The position numbers and the translations under genes are program-made. A stretch of 20,330 nt of DNA from a virus. How positions within the stretch are numbered: the first letter of the stretch is position 1; every line of letters starts with the position of its first letter. The notes under the pieces were generated by a model. That model was not told the DNA's origin, ran no database searches, and worked only from the letters and a program-made list of their open reading frames with translations. The stretch spans positions 1 through 20,330 of IMG/VR virus record IMGVR_UViG_3300035698_002885. The stretch is one strand, 5' to 3'. Below, in pieces: positions 1,227 to 14,031 of the stretch.

Positions 1227-2672
1227 TTATGCGAAATTAGCCGCCATTAGTTGATTTAGCCCCGACGTTGTTTGTGCTTTGCGAACGGTTTTTTCTTGAG
1301 TTGTTTTTTGCTTTTCTAACGATGTTAAAATCTTAGTTAATAGTTCATTGCTTTTATTCACTGGATTTTTGACATTAGAAAATGTTAGGAATCTTGACTC
1401 AATAGCCTCGACACTGCCCCGCTGAACCAACGGATCACCGGGCTTATCTATCGCCTTTTCTATCGCCTTTGGCAAAACCAGCTTATCTATATCGGATTGT
1501 TTTGGAGGAACTGGTTTCCCTAAACCGGCATTCCCGTCTAATCCAAACAATCCTCCCGCCTCGCTATCTAATAGCTTTTGACCCAAGGCCGCCAATTGAT
1601 CTTTTAGTCCCTGCTCAATAATTGTTATTGGCCTATCGACCCGCTCGGCAAAATCCTTATAAACAGGGGCATCTCCAGCACCTCCTCTTAATAACGATCC
1701 ATATTCTACGCTTGGGTCTTCGCCATATAATTTATCAACTTGCCTAACAAGAAACTTTTCTGATTCTTCAAAAGCATTGTTTAAGATTTTCCAAAGACTT
1801 ATAGCTTGATCTGTTACGTATATATCCGCATTTGTCCACGCTGTCTTAATGTCGTCAACCATTGTCGTACCGAACCAATGCTTCATATCTTCAGATAGCT
1901 CAAAGAAGGCTAGGGCCATAGATGTAATGAAAATATCAACCCCGGTATATAGATTTTCAATTGCAAACCCCACTTTTTCTATTGCCGGTATTAAGCCCGG
2001 TATTTCTAAAAGAGTTCCTGCAATCTTCTCTTGTAAATCCCCCCAAATATTAGATAATTGGTCTAGTTTTCCGCCGAAGGTTTCAGTTTCGGCTTCAGCT
2101 AATTTGAAACCTTCAGCACCTTTAGCTAATACTACTTGGAACTTTTCCTGAGCGGTCATGTTTTTGTCAAGCTGAATACCATATCTGCTAAACGAATCGG
2201 AGTTACCTTGAGCCGCCTTTGCTATCAAGGTCATTGCAGCTTTCATGTCGATTTTCAAAGACTTAGAAAATCCAATAGCTGCAATAGTTGCCTGCTTTAA
2301 TCCCTTGCCGGATAACCCGCCCATTGATGCACCTAAAGCAGCTATTTCTAAAGTAGCTTCATCGCCTATAGTAGTCATGCGTTGAACTTGTGAAGCAAAC
2401 TGTAACATATCTAGTATGTCTTCGGTTGTCGCTTCCCCTAAATTTTCCAATGCAGCTGTTAGTTGATTTACCGCTAATTCTTGTCGGTTAAATAGTTCAA
2501 TAGATTCTTTACCAAACCTAAACAAAGCCCTCGCACCAAGAAACGCCGCACCCGCAACCGCTAAAGACTTAAAAGAGGCAGCTAACCTTTTAGACGCACC
2601 GCCTATTTTCCCAAACTTCTTACTCGCTTGGTCGCGTGCTTTTATTACTATGTCAACTTTACTTTTAGCCAT
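1227..2672 (-). CDS. Tail tape measure protein (short, gpH-like)
   Basis: A 481-residue protein with the usual features of a tape measure. The basic helical N-terminus (MAKSKVDIVIKARDQASKKF) is followed by a hydrophobic segment at about 40-52 (AVAGAAFLGARAL). A long helical region then contains the conserved-looking block SLKIDMKAAMTLIAKAAQGN at about 135-154, typical of phage tail length tape-measure proteins. More hydrophobic segments occur near 220-265 (IPGLIPAIEKVGFAI and FITSMALAFFEL). The C-terminus is helical and lysine/threonine-rich. The protein sets tail length by spanning the tube lumen; at roughly 0.15 nm per residue it would give a tail near 70 nm. The gene overlaps the end of the frameshifted chaperone reading frame by eight bases, the same arrangement as lambda GT-H. 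Start at 2672 has GAGG eight bases upstream. Confidence 0.88.
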   Translation of the reverse strand: MAKSKVDIVIKARDQASKKFGKIGGASKRLAASFKSLAVAGAAFLGARALFRFGKESIELFNRQELAVNQLTAALENLGEATTEDILDMLQFASQVQRMTTIGDEATLEIAALGASMGGLSGKGLKQATIAAIGFSKSLKIDMKAAMTLIAKAAQGNSDSFSRYGIQLDKNMTAQEKFQVVLAKGAEGFKLAEAETETFGGKLDQLSNIWGDLQEKIAGTLLEIPGLIPAIEKVGFAIENLYTGVDIFITSMALAFFELSEDMKHWFGTTMVDDIKTAWTNADIYVTDQAISLWKILNNAFEESEKFLVRQVDKLYGEDPSVEYGSLLRGGAGDAPVYKDFAERVDRPITIIEQGLKDQLAALGQKLLDSEAGGLFGLDGNAGLGKPVPPKQSDIDKLVLPKAIEKAIDKPGDPLVQRGSVEAIESRFLTFSNVKNPVNKSNELLTKILTSLEKQKTTQEKTVRKAQTTSGLNQLMAANFA

Positions 2673-3063
2673 TGTCTAACCTCGGCCCCAATTTATTGTC
2701 CCATTGTTTTTGTTCATAAAAAACTAACTCTACCGCGTCAATAAAACTCTTAGCCTGATCGAACACTCCGCCCGCTACGGGAGGTAGTCCTTTTTTATAC
2801 AATCCAGCCAATGTCAATAGTTCCCATATGTCATCTGTTATAATATACAAAGGGCATTGTTCAATCCGCCATTCACCTGATCCGTTACACTCTTCACATT
2901 TTACCTGTTCGCCATCGTCGTCCGGTACGGTTCTTTTGCCCTTACACGCCGGGCATACATCCGTAATTGGACTTACTTTCGACGGCTGGTCTTTGCACGC
3001 TTGCGGCCCTTGGCACGAGCTTTTACAGATTTTGCCGTACTGGAGCGCAACTGCGAGTTTGAT
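2665..3063 (-). CDS. Frameshift extension of the tail assembly chaperone (gpGT-like T domain)
   Basis: This is the -1 frame part of a probable fusion protein. The frame has a TAA ending inside the nine-A run at 3071-3063 and then stays open for 132 codons, through to the stop at 2665 which overlaps the tape measure start. There is no good start or ribosome binding site inside it; the first possible start is a TTG at 2850 with nothing convincing upstream. Expression by slippage from the preceding chaperone gene is therefore the simplest reading, giving a 249-residue product (117 + 132). The extension is rich in cysteine: CPAC and CEEC separated by 15 residues form a DnaJ-like zinc ribbon, and four further cysteines (KICKSSC, ACK, QCP) lie nearby. 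The C-terminal half is helical with aromatic residues (DIWELL, VFYEQKQW). In lambda the T part recruits tail tube protein to the tape measure. Confidence 0.82.
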   Translation of the reverse strand: MKLAVALQYGKICKSSCQGPQACKDQPSKVSPITDVCPACKGKRTVPDDDGEQVKCEECNGSGEWRIEQCPLYIITDDIWELLTLAGLYKKGLPPVAGGVFDQAKSFIDAVELVFYEQKQWDNKLGPRLDNG

Positions 3064-3413
3064 TTTTTTTTATCTGCCATCGAAGGTAACTGTTCATATA
3101 TTGCTGCTATGATTTGCTTAACCTCTTTGACTAATAATAACCCGGTTATTTTGTCGATATCGAACGCAATTGCCTTGCCTTTAGTATCAATCATATCCCA
3201 TCCGACTAAACCCAAACGCAACAACCCATCATAGGCCGCTAATAGAGCATCGGTGTCATCGTTCTTTATTTTGTCAAGTTTCTTCGACTGATCCATAAGT
3301 TCAGCGAAAGCTATTCCTGACAAATACGCCAAATAGAATACAGGCGGATCACCTACATAATCATGTTCAGGCGTAAACTCATACGTCATTCCCGGTCTGT
3401 TTGCTATTGTCAT
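2973..3413 (-). CDS. Tail assembly chaperone (gpG-like), 146 aa
   Basis: A mostly helical protein lying between tail tube and tape measure, the position of lambda gpG. I chose the ATG at 3413 (MTIANRPGMTYEFTPEHD), which has a modest AGAGAG eight bases upstream. A second ATG at 3389 is possible, and an upstream extension to 3506 is unlikely because it adds a very basic tail that only reads through the preceding gene. Residues 22-110 form the chaperone-like body. The last 29 residues of the unshifted product are very basic (ending KRAKTSRRK) and may be an artefact of reading past the slip site. At codons 115-117 the gene reads AAA AAA AAA, a classic slippery run that gives access to the -1 extension. 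The gene overlaps the small upstream gene by 35 bases. Confidence 0.8.
   Translation of the reverse strand: MTIANRPGMTYEFTPEHDYVGDPPVFYLAYLSGIAFAELMDQSKKLDKIKNDDTDALLAAYDGLLRLGLVGWDMIDTKGKAIAFDIDKITGLLLVKEVKQIIAAIYEQLPSMADKKKSNSQLRSSTAKSVKARAKGRKRAKTSRRK
3063..3071 (-). promoter_or_regulatory. Slippery A9 run for -1 ribosomal frameshifting
   Basis: Nine consecutive adenines on the coding strand are read as GAT AAA AAA AAA TCA in the zero frame, which fits the X XXY YYZ pattern (A AAA AAA). The -1 frame is blocked by TAA immediately at the run and then open for 132 codons. The site sits about 90 bases before the zero-frame stop. A short possible stem (TTGCG at 3050-3046 with CGCAA at 3005-3001) lies downstream but is not strong. 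Confidence 0.78.
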
Positions 3414-3558
3414 TTTTCTTGCTCTCTTTCTGTTTCTGTTCGATCTTTTTCTCTGTGGCCCAAAGTTTGCCAATCTGCTGATCGGTTGCATCTCGTAGGC
3501 CGCCATATTTCTTATTTAGTAATTCACGTATCTTTTTTATATCAGTTTTAATATCCAT
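3379..3558 (-). CDS. Small hypothetical protein, 59 aa
   Basis: A short lysine-rich helical protein between the tail tube and chaperone genes. The start at 3558 (MDIKTDIKKIREL) has a strong ribosome binding site, AAAAGGAA about six bases upstream, and lies 11 bases after the tail tube stop. A longer reading to 3591 would overlap the tail tube gene and lacks support. The sequence looks like a single helix with many Lys, Asp and Gln residues and a hydrophilic C-terminus (KESKKNDNSKQTGNDV). It overlaps the chaperone start by 35 bases, unusually long for this operon. Function unknown; a small tail assembly helper is possible from position only. Confidence 0.6.
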   Translation of the reverse strand: MDIKTDIKKIRELLNKKYGGLRDATDQQIGKLWATEKKIEQKQKESKKNDNSKQTGNDV

Positions 3559-3569
3559 TATATTTCCTT

Positions 3570-4481
3570 TTAAGCTGCTACTATAGTCCATTCGTCGTCA
3601 CCAGTTGCAATCGTTTCGACGTTGCACTGACCTGTCATGTCCTGAATAATAGTTCCGTCTCTGTCCCCTGTAGGGATTTCGGTACGTTGCCATTTAGGAG
3701 CGTTTAATGTAAAGCTAGTAGTGCCGTCGGTCATAGCAATGTCAACCGCCGACTCTGTTCCTAATTTCCAAATCGCATCATCGGCACGAGTTGCAACCAA
3801 TGCTGCATCGGGATCAAATGCAATCGTCGGGCTCCTATCGGTTATTTGATAATAAGCAATTGCTCCTTGGTCGTAAACAGGAGAGACTTCATTGCCCATG
3901 TCAAACGTGAACGTACTGATAGCTAAATCAGCCGCCGCAAGGGTAGCGGTGTTTGTGCCTTGGCCCCAAGGTATAGGTATAGTTACAGCATAAGCCGTGG
4001 TAGGTAGTGCAAGATCAGCAACAGGTGTACCGGTATCCTCAACTCCTTTATAAGTAAATGACCATACAAGCCTACCGTCATCAGGTGCCAATACACCCGT
4101 ACCACAAGAACCTTTAATTTTTTTAACACGTCCATCCTCGTAAACATAAGCCGACATGGTCTTAAAATTAGCGGACGCCGACGTTGGATTCATCGTTTTG
4201 GTCGATAGTAAGCTACCACTGGATTGCATTAATATTGACAGCCCTGCATCCCAGTCACTCGAACCTCGAAGCTCGGTTTTAAAACTCAATGTCCAGGCTC
4301 CAGAGTTTTCAGGCACAGCCGCCGCCGTCTGGCCCATAAATGCACCCGAGCCTTTCCGTTCGGCCATAGACTCATCCGGGTTGCATTCAATATCGAATGC
4401 AAATACGTCTGTATCGGGAACAACCGCAGTACCTCGAGCAGTTTCTAATTTTACTTTTAATGATCTTAATCGGGTTAACAT
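3570..4481 (-). CDS. Major tail tube protein (gpV-like)
   Basis: A 303-residue protein forming, by inference, the hexameric rings of the tail tube. I chose the ATG at 4481 (MLTRLRSLKVKLE) because GAGGAG lies seven bases upstream; the longer frame to 4496 uses a non-ATG start inside the upstream gene. The N-terminus has the usual tube pattern of a strand pair followed by ARGTAVVPDTDVFAFDIECNPD. The middle contains GAWTLSFKTELRGS and RLVWSFTYKG, typical strands of phage tube proteins. The C-terminus, GDDEWTIVAA, is close to the ending seen in many siphovirus tube proteins. It follows the tail terminator candidate and precedes the chaperone and tape measure, matching lambda U-V-G-H order. The length leaves room for an extra surface domain. 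Confidence 0.82.
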   Translation of the reverse strand: MLTRLRSLKVKLETARGTAVVPDTDVFAFDIECNPDESMAERKGSGAFMGQTAAAVPENSGAWTLSFKTELRGSSDWDAGLSILMQSSGSLLSTKTMNPTSASANFKTMSAYVYEDGRVKKIKGSCGTGVLAPDDGRLVWSFTYKGVEDTGTPVADLALPTTAYAVTIPIPWGQGTNTATLAAADLAISTFTFDMGNEVSPVYDQGAIAYYQITDRSPTIAFDPDAALVATRADDAIWKLGTESAVDIAMTDGTTSFTLNAPKWQRTEIPTGDRDGTIIQDMTGQCNVETIATGDDEWTIVAA

Positions 4482-4492
4482 AATTACACTCC

Positions 4493-4957
4493 TCAAGTTT
4501 GTGTATAAGGGTCGTTGAATACTGTTCTAAATTTAATATCTACGTCTATCACTATTCCAGTGAACGCTTCATTTATTGTAAATCTGCTTGCAGATGTTAC
4601 TAAGGTATCTCTTGCAAGTCCCCCGCGTGTTATATCAACCTTTAATGCCTTCTCAATATCAGCCGCAACCTGATTAATAACCAAATCTAATTCGGTTGTA
4701 GCGTCCTCAGATTGAATGATTATCGCAGACAATGAAAAGGTTTCTGTTTTATCAACCGCATTAGTTTGCAGTGTGTTGTCAAACTCTTTGTCTGCTTGAT
4801 TAATTAATACATCTAGGCTATCCCATTCGGCGTCATCGAAAGGTATTCTCTTAGGTCTTACAGCGTTTAATGTATAGTTGTATCCATTACCAGTAGTGAT
4901 ACCATTTATAGTTGTCTCTACGTTCTGGGCTATTTGTTCGATTATAGGTTCGCTCAT
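4493..4957 (-). CDS. Tail terminator / tail completion protein candidate (gpU-like)
   Basis: A 154-residue acidic alpha/beta protein between the gpZ-like and tail tube genes, the position of lambda gpU. An N-terminal helix (EQIAQNVETTINGIT) leads to a strand (YNYTLNAVRPKR). A second helix follows at about 88-108 (ATTELDLVINQVAADIEKAL), and the C-terminal strands (FTGIVIDVDIKFRTVF) end in NDPYTQT. This layout matches the tail terminator fold, in which a long strand of the form 'v.i.i.yrt' precedes DP. Tail terminators cap the tube and stop polymerisation. Start codon overlaps the upstream stop by four bases (ATGA). Assignment rests on size, layout and synteny rather than a unique motif. Confidence 0.68.
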   Translation of the reverse strand: MSEPIIEQIAQNVETTINGITTGNGYNYTLNAVRPKRIPFDDAEWDSLDVLINQADKEFDNTLQTNAVDKTETFSLSAIIIQSEDATTELDLVINQVAADIEKALKVDITRGGLARDTLVTSASRFTINEAFTGIVIDVDIKFRTVFNDPYTQT

Positions 4958-12130: not shown

Positions 12131-13057
12131 TTAACCCTTAACGTCTAAAAGCATCTGAATAGCGTTAATCGTTGGGAGAACTTCGGCACTAGTTGCAGCA
12201 TCGGTACAAGCAATCGTCAATACAACATCGAGCAAATCACCCGCCGTAACATCGGTCGCCGTGATCGTAAAATCAATATCAGCAACGGTAGTGTCGTTCA
12301 TATCTGTGACCGCTGTTGCACAAATATCCTCTGTTGGATCATCAAAGTTTGTAACCTCTGCATCAAGCGTACAAGATGTATCAGCCACGTTCGTGGCCAC
12401 AAGCGCCTTAACTCTCAGCGTAATTGTTTCCGCCGCCGTGTATTCGACGGGCATCGCAAATTGGAATCCAACTTTCATAGTTGTTAATCCGGCATCTTGC
12501 AAATCACCCGCATTAAGTGTATTGTTACTGGTTCCAAAGGTTCCCGCGACAAAAGCAAGATCATCGGCAGCCGCTGTAGTCACTACAGCTAAGGTGTGCA
12601 TCGCGTTCCATACCCGCATGTCGGTCAATGGAACATGGTAAACAGCCGCGTTATCCTGTGTCATTTGGGCCCTGGCCCAACTCATAGTACCAGCTCCATT
12701 ATCAAGTAAACATTCGACGATATCATCATCTGCGGTCGCGGCTTCCAACGCTGTGCCAATAGCGTTACCGCTAGCCGAATCGGAAACTTTCCCATCATCC
12801 GCGGCATACAAAGTCGCACCGACATCGAACGAATCAGCTGCTGTACATTTGAACGATTGCTGCATACCTTTAAGCTGAACAGCTACCGAAGTAGTGATTA
12901 CTGACGCTTCCGCGGTAATACCAATAAAGCTCGAACTGTCAGTTTGGTCGGCATACTCCACCGCTGTACCACTTGCGGCGGTTAGTTTCACTCGCCGAAA
13001 TGCCTCTAGTGCCTCGGTAGAGGTGAAGGCTTTCGGACTCATGTTTTCTTGTGACAT
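12131..13057 (-). CDS. Capsid decoration-type protein, copy 2 (308 aa)
   Basis: Second of two tandem 308-residue paralogues placed just before the capsid gene, where lambda has decoration protein gpD. Residues 1-110 resemble DUF2190-type capsid decoration proteins: FRRVKLTAASGTAVEYADQT, then FIGITAEA and LYAADDGKVSDSASGNAIG, ending with IVECLL. The remaining 190 residues form a second, beta-rich domain (MRVWNAMHTLAV, DDLAFVAGTFGTSNNTL, VGFQFAMPVEYTAAETITL, PTINAIQMLLDV), jelly-roll-like by eye. The protein is acidic. The start at 13057 has AAGGAG nine bases upstream, in a leader nearly identical to that of the capsid gene (AAGGAGCTATAT). Role on the capsid surface is inferred from the family and position. 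Confidence 0.7.
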   Translation of the reverse strand: MSQENMSPKAFTSTEALEAFRRVKLTAASGTAVEYADQTDSSSFIGITAEASVITTSVAVQLKGMQQSFKCTAADSFDVGATLYAADDGKVSDSASGNAIGTALEAATADDDIVECLLDNGAGTMSWARAQMTQDNAAVYHVPLTDMRVWNAMHTLAVVTTAAADDLAFVAGTFGTSNNTLNAGDLQDAGLTTMKVGFQFAMPVEYTAAETITLRVKALVATNVADTSCTLDAEVTNFDDPTEDICATAVTDMNDTTVADIDFTITATDVTAGDLLDVVLTIACTDAATSAEVLPTINAIQMLLDVKG

Positions 13058-13104: not shown

Positions 13105-14031
13105 CTAACTCTTAATATCCAAAAGCATCTGGACAGAGTTAATCGTCGGATTGACCGCTGTGCCAGTTCCTGAATCATTAACGGCCAATGTTAAAACCAC
13201 GTCGAGCAAATCGCCCGGCGTTACATCGGTTGCTGTAATTGTAAAATCTTTATTAGCCGCTACTACTGCATTTATACTCTGGAGAGCGGTCGCGCAAATG
13301 TCTGCAGTGGCATCATCATAGTTAGTAACCTCACAATCAACCGTACTCGAAACACTCGCAACGGTAGTCGCAGTTAAAGCATTGACTCTCAAGGTTATAG
13401 TCTGGGCCGCCACGTATTCGATTGGTACGGCAAACTGAAAACCAACTTTTCGACTTGTCGCTCCGGCATTTTTAAGATCACCAGTGCTAAGCGTATTATT
13501 GCTGGTTCCAAAAGTTCCAGCTACAAACGCAAGGTCATCGTTGGCGCCCGTGGTTGCAACCGCTTTAGTATGCATCGCATCCCATACTCGCATATTAGTT
13601 AGCGGGACATTATATACGGCTAAGTCTGCTTGAGTTAATGTCGCTCGTGTCCAAGAGACTACACCGCCATTATAGTCAAGCGTACATTCAACTATATCAC
13701 CTGCAGCTGTAGACGCTTCCAATGCTGTACCAATTACGTTACCGCTAGCAGAATCGGAAACTTTCCCGTCGTCGGCTGCGTATAGGTCTGCACCAGCGGC
13801 GAAAGTATCAGCCGATTCACATTTGAAGGTTCTTTGCACGCCTATAAGGTGTATAGCCACATGCGTAGTTATCGCAACTGCTTCATGTGTGACCCCGATA
13901 TAGTCCGAGCTATCGGTCTGGTCGGCGTATTCGACAGTCGTTCCGCTAGACGCGGTTAATTTTACCCGACGATACGCCTCTAGGGCTACCGTCGAAGTAA
14001 AGGTTTTAGGACTCATGGTCTGTTGTGACAT
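13105..14031 (-). CDS. Capsid decoration-type protein, copy 1 (308 aa)
   Basis: First of the two paralogues, also 308 residues, aligning with copy 2 end to end almost without gaps; by eye about two thirds of positions match. The same two-part layout is visible: a DUF2190-like N-terminal domain (RRVKLTASSGTTVEYADQT, LYAADDGKVSDSASGNVIG) and a beta-rich C-terminal domain (MRVWDAMHTKAV, DDLAFVAGTFGTSNNTL, PTINSVQMLLDI). The start at 14031 has AAGGAG about eight bases upstream. An 8-bp inverted repeat places the start codon in a weak stem. It is separated from copy 2 by 47 bases that hold only the ribosome binding site and AT-rich sequence. Likely binds the capsid exterior, possibly mixed with copy 2. 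Confidence 0.7.
   Translation of the reverse strand: MSQQTMSPKTFTSTVALEAYRRVKLTASSGTTVEYADQTDSSDYIGVTHEAVAITTHVAIHLIGVQRTFKCESADTFAAGADLYAADDGKVSDSASGNVIGTALEASTAAGDIVECTLDYNGGVVSWTRATLTQADLAVYNVPLTNMRVWDAMHTKAVATTGANDDLAFVAGTFGTSNNTLSTGDLKNAGATSRKVGFQFAVPIEYVAAQTITLRVNALTATTVASVSSTVDCEVTNYDDATADICATALQSINAVVAANKDFTITATDVTPGDLLDVVLTLAVNDSGTGTAVNPTINSVQMLLDIKS

Follow-up and report, generated by a model that had tools for sequence, protein, structure and literature searches.

A probable G/GT-type -1 fusion of a phage tail assembly chaperone at a conserved run of nine adenines, perhaps made by transcriptional slippage

The window analysed here is a 20 kb IMG/VR virus record (20,330 nucleotides, taken at its full length), in which the genes of the chaperone region lie on the minus strand. 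Two overlapping ORFs sit between a probable major tail protein and the tape measure gene, and this order is repeated in phage JP1, in the relative L020 and in others. The features of the region are as follows.

1227–2672 (−): tape measure protein, 481 aa (weak PHROG tape-measure matches, E ~0.013; tblastn match to the tape measure of Dinoroseobacter phage R4C, E=1e-4; its homologue adjoins the extension in L020)
2665–3063 (−): putative -1 frame extension, T-like and Cys-rich, 132 aa plus stop (open frame, profile, alignment, AlphaFold model)
3063–3069 (−): A AAA AAA, the in-phase -1 heptamer that the nine A's contain (position relative to frame 0)
3063–3071 (−): run of exactly nine A's (A9), GAT AAA AAA AAA TCA, the putative slippage site (sequence, conserved length)
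2973–3413 (−): frame-0 tail assembly chaperone, G-like, 146 aa, with its ATG at 3413–3411 and its stop at 2973 (ORF, profile match, relative in L020)
3379–3558 (−): small ORF of 59 aa between the tail tube gene and the chaperone (ORF, position)
3570–4496 (−): probable major tail (tube) protein (gene order: it precedes the chaperone, as in JP1)

A PHROG scan gave no family match for the product of 3570–4496. The 59 aa ORF overlaps the chaperone start, and an ORF of similar size is found there in JP1 and in the Rhizobium and Rhodobacter relatives. Elsewhere in the window, 12131–13057 and 13105–14031 (−) encode adjacent proteins of 308 residues that look clearly alike (MSQ..MSPK.FTST.ALEA.RRVKLTA...); the pair, which lies upstream of the capsid gene, looks like a tandem duplication. 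The loci L024 and L027 encode capsid proteins 47–49% identical to that of the window, next to a seemingly different chaperone and tape measure. No match to the extension family was found in these two loci either, so the tail module appears to have been exchanged.

Read in the chaperone frame, the A9 at 3071–3063 (−) consists of three AAA codons (GCA GAT AAA AAA AAA TCA), as the initial annotation had seen. The last upstream stop in the -1 frame is the TAA at 3072–3070, formed by the T of GAT and the first two A's. After the slip, the -1 frame stays open for 132 residues (IKLAV...LDNG) until the TAA at 2667–2665, which overlaps the tape-measure ATG at 2672 (overlap of 8 nt). These coordinates agree with the earlier description of a frame that is closed at the A-run and then open for 132 codons up to the tape-measure overlap. 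The probability that 132 codons contain no stop is about 1e-4 judging from the local base composition and 5e-5 by shuffling. Runs of at least eight A's are expected 3.8 times per window in dinucleotide shuffles; the A9 is the only one present. It had also been claimed that the extension frame lacks an ATG start, and there is indeed none in the window: no start-like codon comes before a TTG at 2850, which would yield only 61 aa and miss most of the Cys motifs. Past the slip site, frame 0 continues for 29 Lys/Arg-rich codons (2973–3062, −). Across the relatives this tail ranges from 0 to 55 codons and is little conserved in sequence.

We found no close relatives in the viral collection when the chaperone, the extension and the tape measure of the window served as queries, and the extension had no hit in the genome collection. 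Against phage records, the window's own proteins gave weak matches only, and the tail-completion protein gave none. One weak match, in Alteromonas phage P24, falls in an unannotated gap between the chaperone and the tape measure. The P24 chaperone ends in AGA AAA AAC TAA, and its -1 frame encodes a Cys-containing domain with the C-terminal motif of the window. From P24 the search was extended to Agrobacterium phage JP1, to the Rhizobium phages L338C, RHph_I4 and TM16 and to the Rhodobacter phages RcTiptonus and RcZahn. The site is A AAA AAC in JP1, RcZahn and TM16, G GGA AAC in L338C and RHph_I4, and A AAA AAG in RcTiptonus, and the extension is in the -1 frame in all of them. The same arrangement occurs in Dinoroseobacter phage R4C with an unrelated and shorter extension. 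A match in mEp044, situated in a recombination-gene region, was discarded. In the P24 record (L003, 3858–4155) the -1 extension is unannotated; in the Rhizobium and Rhodobacter phage records L013, L014, L016 and L017 it appears as a CDS of its own, and the starts assigned to it are inconsistent.

Further loci came from queries with capsid-gene relatives, followed by queries with the extensions of these. The scan of capsid relatives, P24-like ones included, gave 25 loci with an extension, all 25 of them with a -1 frame and an in-phase heptamer. L020 and L021, two of the nearest by capsid protein, carry exactly nine A's, as does L058, which was found through the L020 extension. A search with the L020, L021 and L058 extensions yielded 43 loci, and here, too, all 43 showed the -1 relation with an in-phase heptamer; the slip site had not been selected for in these loci, because the search patterns were taken from the interior of the extension. 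The nine contigs fetched later behaved in the same way (9/9). Altogether, about 85 loci including eight phage isolates have the extension always in the -1 frame, at an in-phase XXXYYYZ heptamer.

The homology begins at the slip point or within a few codons of it. Over the first codons after the slip, amino acid identity among the relatives is 0.42 in the -1 frame versus 0.26 in frame 0. An extension profile built without the window (from seven extensions) matches the window's -1 ORF with E=4e-7 among 318 ORFs, and a chaperone profile likewise built without the window matches the frame-0 ORF with E=0.004; the latter ORF also has a relative in L020 (phmmer, E=5e-7). The homologues in RcTiptonus and RcZahn are annotated as tail assembly chaperones, and this annotation together with the gene order supports a G/GT role. 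Judged from these sequence comparisons, the -1 extension is a real part of the gene that is conserved in the relatives, and the locus almost certainly encodes a -1 fusion of a tail assembly chaperone of the lambda G/GT type. The initial annotation had proposed such a fusion and had named conservation of the extension frame in relatives as a check; the frame is conserved, and the window-free profile recovers it.

An alignment of 37 rows showed eight conserved Cys residues and a C-terminal KGLPPVAGG..DQ..F motif in the extension. Its AlphaFold model has a mean pLDDT of 85. A fold search with the model gave no confident match; its middle part bears only a weak resemblance to the DnaJ Cys-rich domain (best E 0.09). 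Pfam and PHROG scans returned no family-level assignment for G or T, and profile matches of the extension to PDB chains of tRNA synthetase and ubiquitin hydrolase were short and were set aside. By analogy with lambda, the T domain of a G-T fusion would connect the tape measure with the tail tube protein, and it may bind zinc and the tube protein.

We then considered the length of the A-run. In the clade of the window, exactly nine A's are found in 27 of 32 lineages (defined at 70% identity) and never more; the remaining lineages have A8 (L072, L078), A7 (L085) or six A's followed by C (A6C; L090, L095). Among the later-fetched contigs, seven of nine have A9, one has A7 and one A6C. The nine A's occur in three registers, for example GAT AAA AAA AAA T, GAA AAA AAA A(G/C) and GCA AAA AAA AAC. 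A codon-usage null that requires only an in-phase A AAA AAA, takes the lineages as unrelated and puts no Lys constraint on the joint predicts 35% A7, 33% A8, 20% A9 and about 12% longer runs. On a quick tree of the clade, with many weak forks, four changes suffice to explain the A9 state, and at least three shifts of register took place without any change from nine in the length; the A7 and A6C members branch near the base. The existence of A8, A7 and A6C members means that the homopolymer is not indispensable. The A9 clade was found only once capsid-gene relatives and their extensions served as queries, and the A6C relatives alone would have pointed to ordinary ribosomal frameshifting throughout.

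A direct scan of 314 kb of these loci revealed only four other A9 runs and no T9. In coding sequence, runs of nine or more A's are mildly under-represented (2 versus 6.1 expected, p=0.06). An apparent excess of T9 most plausibly reflects antisense ORFs covering the site and was dropped. L058 carries a second A9 at 1824–1832, 568 nt upstream of its shift site and close to an A8 in a similar context (GTGGCTAAAAAAAA), which looks like a short repeat.

At the fused joint, nearly all A9 lineages encode Lys-Lys-Lys, with the L020 lineage (A9 with KKN) as the clear exception. In the shorter-site lineages, the heptamer takes its first base from a codon for R, Q, E, S, A, L or I, so that Lys is not generally required at this position.

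In the distant relatives the site is A AAA AAC, A AAA AAG or G GGA AAC, and in most cases a Shine-Dalgarno (SD)-like stretch lies upstream or a hairpin downstream of it. Stable hairpins directly follow the canonical heptamers in L040 (z −6.6) and JP1 (z −5.3), GGAGG precedes them in others, and the A6C clade member L095 has a downstream hairpin with z −2.5. The stems directly downstream of A AAA AAC in L040 (14208–14267, 14 bp) and L095 (5001–5060, 11 bp) are strong candidates for ribosomal frameshift stimulators. In contrast to the distant relatives, with a median hairpin z of −2.4, the A9 lineages are near chance (−0.8; p=3e-4). In the window itself, the hairpin z is −0.47 and no SD-like stretch rises above background. 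Upstream SD-like pairing is at background in about half of the A9 lineages (median −3.2 kcal/mol), whereas all seven clade lineages with A8 or less have an upstream SD-like stretch of −5.6 kcal/mol or better (p=0.017). Counting any stimulator, 13 of 32 A9 lineages have one versus 15 of 17 lineages with shorter or other sites (p=0.002); these tests ignore shared ancestry, and their thresholds were chosen after inspection of the data.

These observations suggest the following scheme. Most translation would end in frame 0 and yield G (146 aa), while a minority of the product would shift to -1 at the A-run and yield a G-T fusion of 249 aa. RNA polymerase would slip on the A9 and add one A in a fraction of the mRNAs, which gives exactly the -1 frame, and such mRNAs, translated normally, would produce G-T. 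The ribosome may contribute by slipping to -1 on the A AAA AAA within the A9. We infer here the slipping enzyme, the product ratio and the function of T.

Several published numbers bear on this scheme. In Thermus thermophilus, dnaX slips at about 50% at an A9 (PMC1088944), and nine A's is the length at which selection against transcriptional slippage shows in many bacteria (PMC1088944). Lambda needs about 30 G for each fusion product, i.e. about 1 in 30 (PMC5009743), and the best heptamers without stimulators reach about 0.3% in E. coli (PMC4066793), which may not be the host of these phages. Together with the exact A9 in three registers and the scarcity of stimulators, these figures favour transcriptional slippage. 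The behaviour of E. coli RNA polymerase counts against it: although insertion was the commoner slip in one study, on poly(A) this enzyme slips poorly relative to poly(T), with little slippage on short poly(A) and none detectable below eight A's (PMC6260861). On balance, we lean towards a G/GT-type pair whose frame shift at A9 would occur mainly by transcriptional slippage, perhaps with a ribosomal share. The initial annotation had remarked that the A9 could slip at transcription; the comparison makes this the likelier mechanism in the clade but does not amount to proof. There is about an even chance that the clade swapped a ribosomal G/GT frameshift for transcriptional slippage at A9 and that ancestral hairpin or SD-like stimulators were lost first. 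The A6C, A7 and A8 relatives are possible steps in such a switch of recoding machinery.

The main competing explanation is purely ribosomal -1 frameshifting at A AAA AAA, with the extra A's owed to a selected Lys-Lys-Lys joint. If the Lys triplet is under selection, the heptamer and KKK together produce nine A's without any transcriptional slippage. The heptamer is in phase in every relative. Every A9 necessarily contains A AAA AAA, so the ribosome could always slip there; an IS element is reported to have this heptamer as a proven shift site (PMC4066793). The canonical sites with hairpins in distant relatives, the KKK read from the codons of most A9 lineages and the 13 A9 lineages that retain some stimulator-like feature fit this explanation as well. 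However, it does not readily account for a length held at nine in three registers and never reaching ten, nor for A9 with KKN in L020, the residues other than Lys in shorter-site lineages and the general absence of the expected stimulators in the A9 lineages. The KKK joint is the main counter-argument to transcriptional slippage; L020 and the freedom at shorter runs speak against it but do not settle the matter. We rate the purely ribosomal explanation as a serious minority possibility. The two mechanisms cannot be separated by mass spectrometry of the joint peptide alone, a check suggested in the initial annotation, since a -1 ribosomal slip and an mRNA with one extra A both give ...DKKKIKL.... 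Only the mRNA itself, or the minor products DKKIKL (two A's lost) and DKKKKIKL (four gained), would distinguish them.

Ribosomes are also known to slide along consecutive AAA codons in a manner that depends on run length (PMC4363877). Sliding on poly(A)/poly-Lys in place of a defined two-tRNA -1 slip could explain the upper limit on the length of the run. Since sliding is robust at A11 with little at A9 or A10 (PMC4363877), and the run in these relatives never exceeds nine, we regard it as very unlikely.

It is also very unlikely that the extension is a gene in its own right, with coupling or reinitiation bringing ribosomes to a start codon that belongs to it. RcZahn has an ATG (TAATG) near the extension start, and the Rhizobium phage records annotate separate CDSs. 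However, the annotated starts lie at different places among the relatives, always downstream of an intact heptamer and in some cases inside the conserved domain, while an ATG is lacking there in the window, in P24 and in others, and conservation starts at the slip site, upstream of any start. The initial annotation had named a homologue with an independent extension gene as the finding that would speak against a fusion, and no homologue clearly has one.

A sequencing or assembly indel in an error-prone homopolymer, or decay of a gene whose two frames were once a single ORF, has practically no chance of being the explanation, since isolates and many samples agree over about 85 loci on the same -1 relation, also at A6C and at G3A3C.

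The tail chaperone frameshift has been described as widely conserved in long-tailed phages and, in the literature consulted, as ribosomal. We found no report of transcriptional slippage at a phage tail chaperone in the open-licence literature, which is weak evidence of novelty; slippage has been suggested for a phage methyltransferase gene (PMC2853527). If transcriptional slippage does set the same product ratio here, conservation would concern the fusion and its dose rather than the way of decoding, and the clade would offer a natural series in which to study the conversion of one recoding mechanism into another. Frameshift finders that seek only a heptamer and a structure may misjudge such sites, and several phage genomes leave the extension without annotation or list it as a gene of its own.

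As in lambda G/GT (PMC5009743), the pair in the window lies between the major tail protein and the tape measure, the C-terminal extension is in the -1 frame, and its stop overlaps the start of the tape measure gene, which is also seen in RcZahn. The in-phase heptamer near the end of G that marks lambda-type systems is present, whereas the hairpin or SD-like element, common but not obligatory there, is absent in the window. The window also differs in its Cys-rich T domain and in having a homopolymer A9, not a standalone heptamer. PHROGs and Pfam gave no family-level match to known G or T proteins, and homologues in RcTiptonus and RcZahn carry the tail assembly chaperone annotation. The isolates P24, JP1, L338C, RHph_I4, TM16, RcTiptonus and RcZahn share the homologous Cys-rich -1 extension and the gene order, but the sites of these Alteromonas, Agrobacterium, Rhizobium and Rhodobacter phages are A AAA AAC, A AAA AAG or G GGA AAC, and most have a hairpin or an SD-like stretch beside them.

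With respect to known transcriptional slippage, the junction has an A9 (at least about eight are expected) and the length is kept across registers, for which the Lys triplet is a possible confounder. T. thermophilus dnaX likewise has exactly nine A's in the coding strand (PMC1088944), but slippage there makes the shorter product, while in the phage it would make the longer one. A longer product from a homopolymer is seen in Shigella spa13 and mxiE (PMC5009743, PMC1088944). Slippage in spa13 adds 112 aa, and this extension ends in an overlap with the beginning of spa32, the gene for the needle-length ruler (PMC5009743, PMC1088944). Slippage is proven in this bacterial secretion system, whereas we infer it for the phage, and the resemblance of spa13/spa32 to the chaperone and tape measure is one of analogy, not of demonstrated homology. 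If our preferred reading is right, the phage locus would parallel the Shigella needle-length system in placing slippage beside a molecular ruler.
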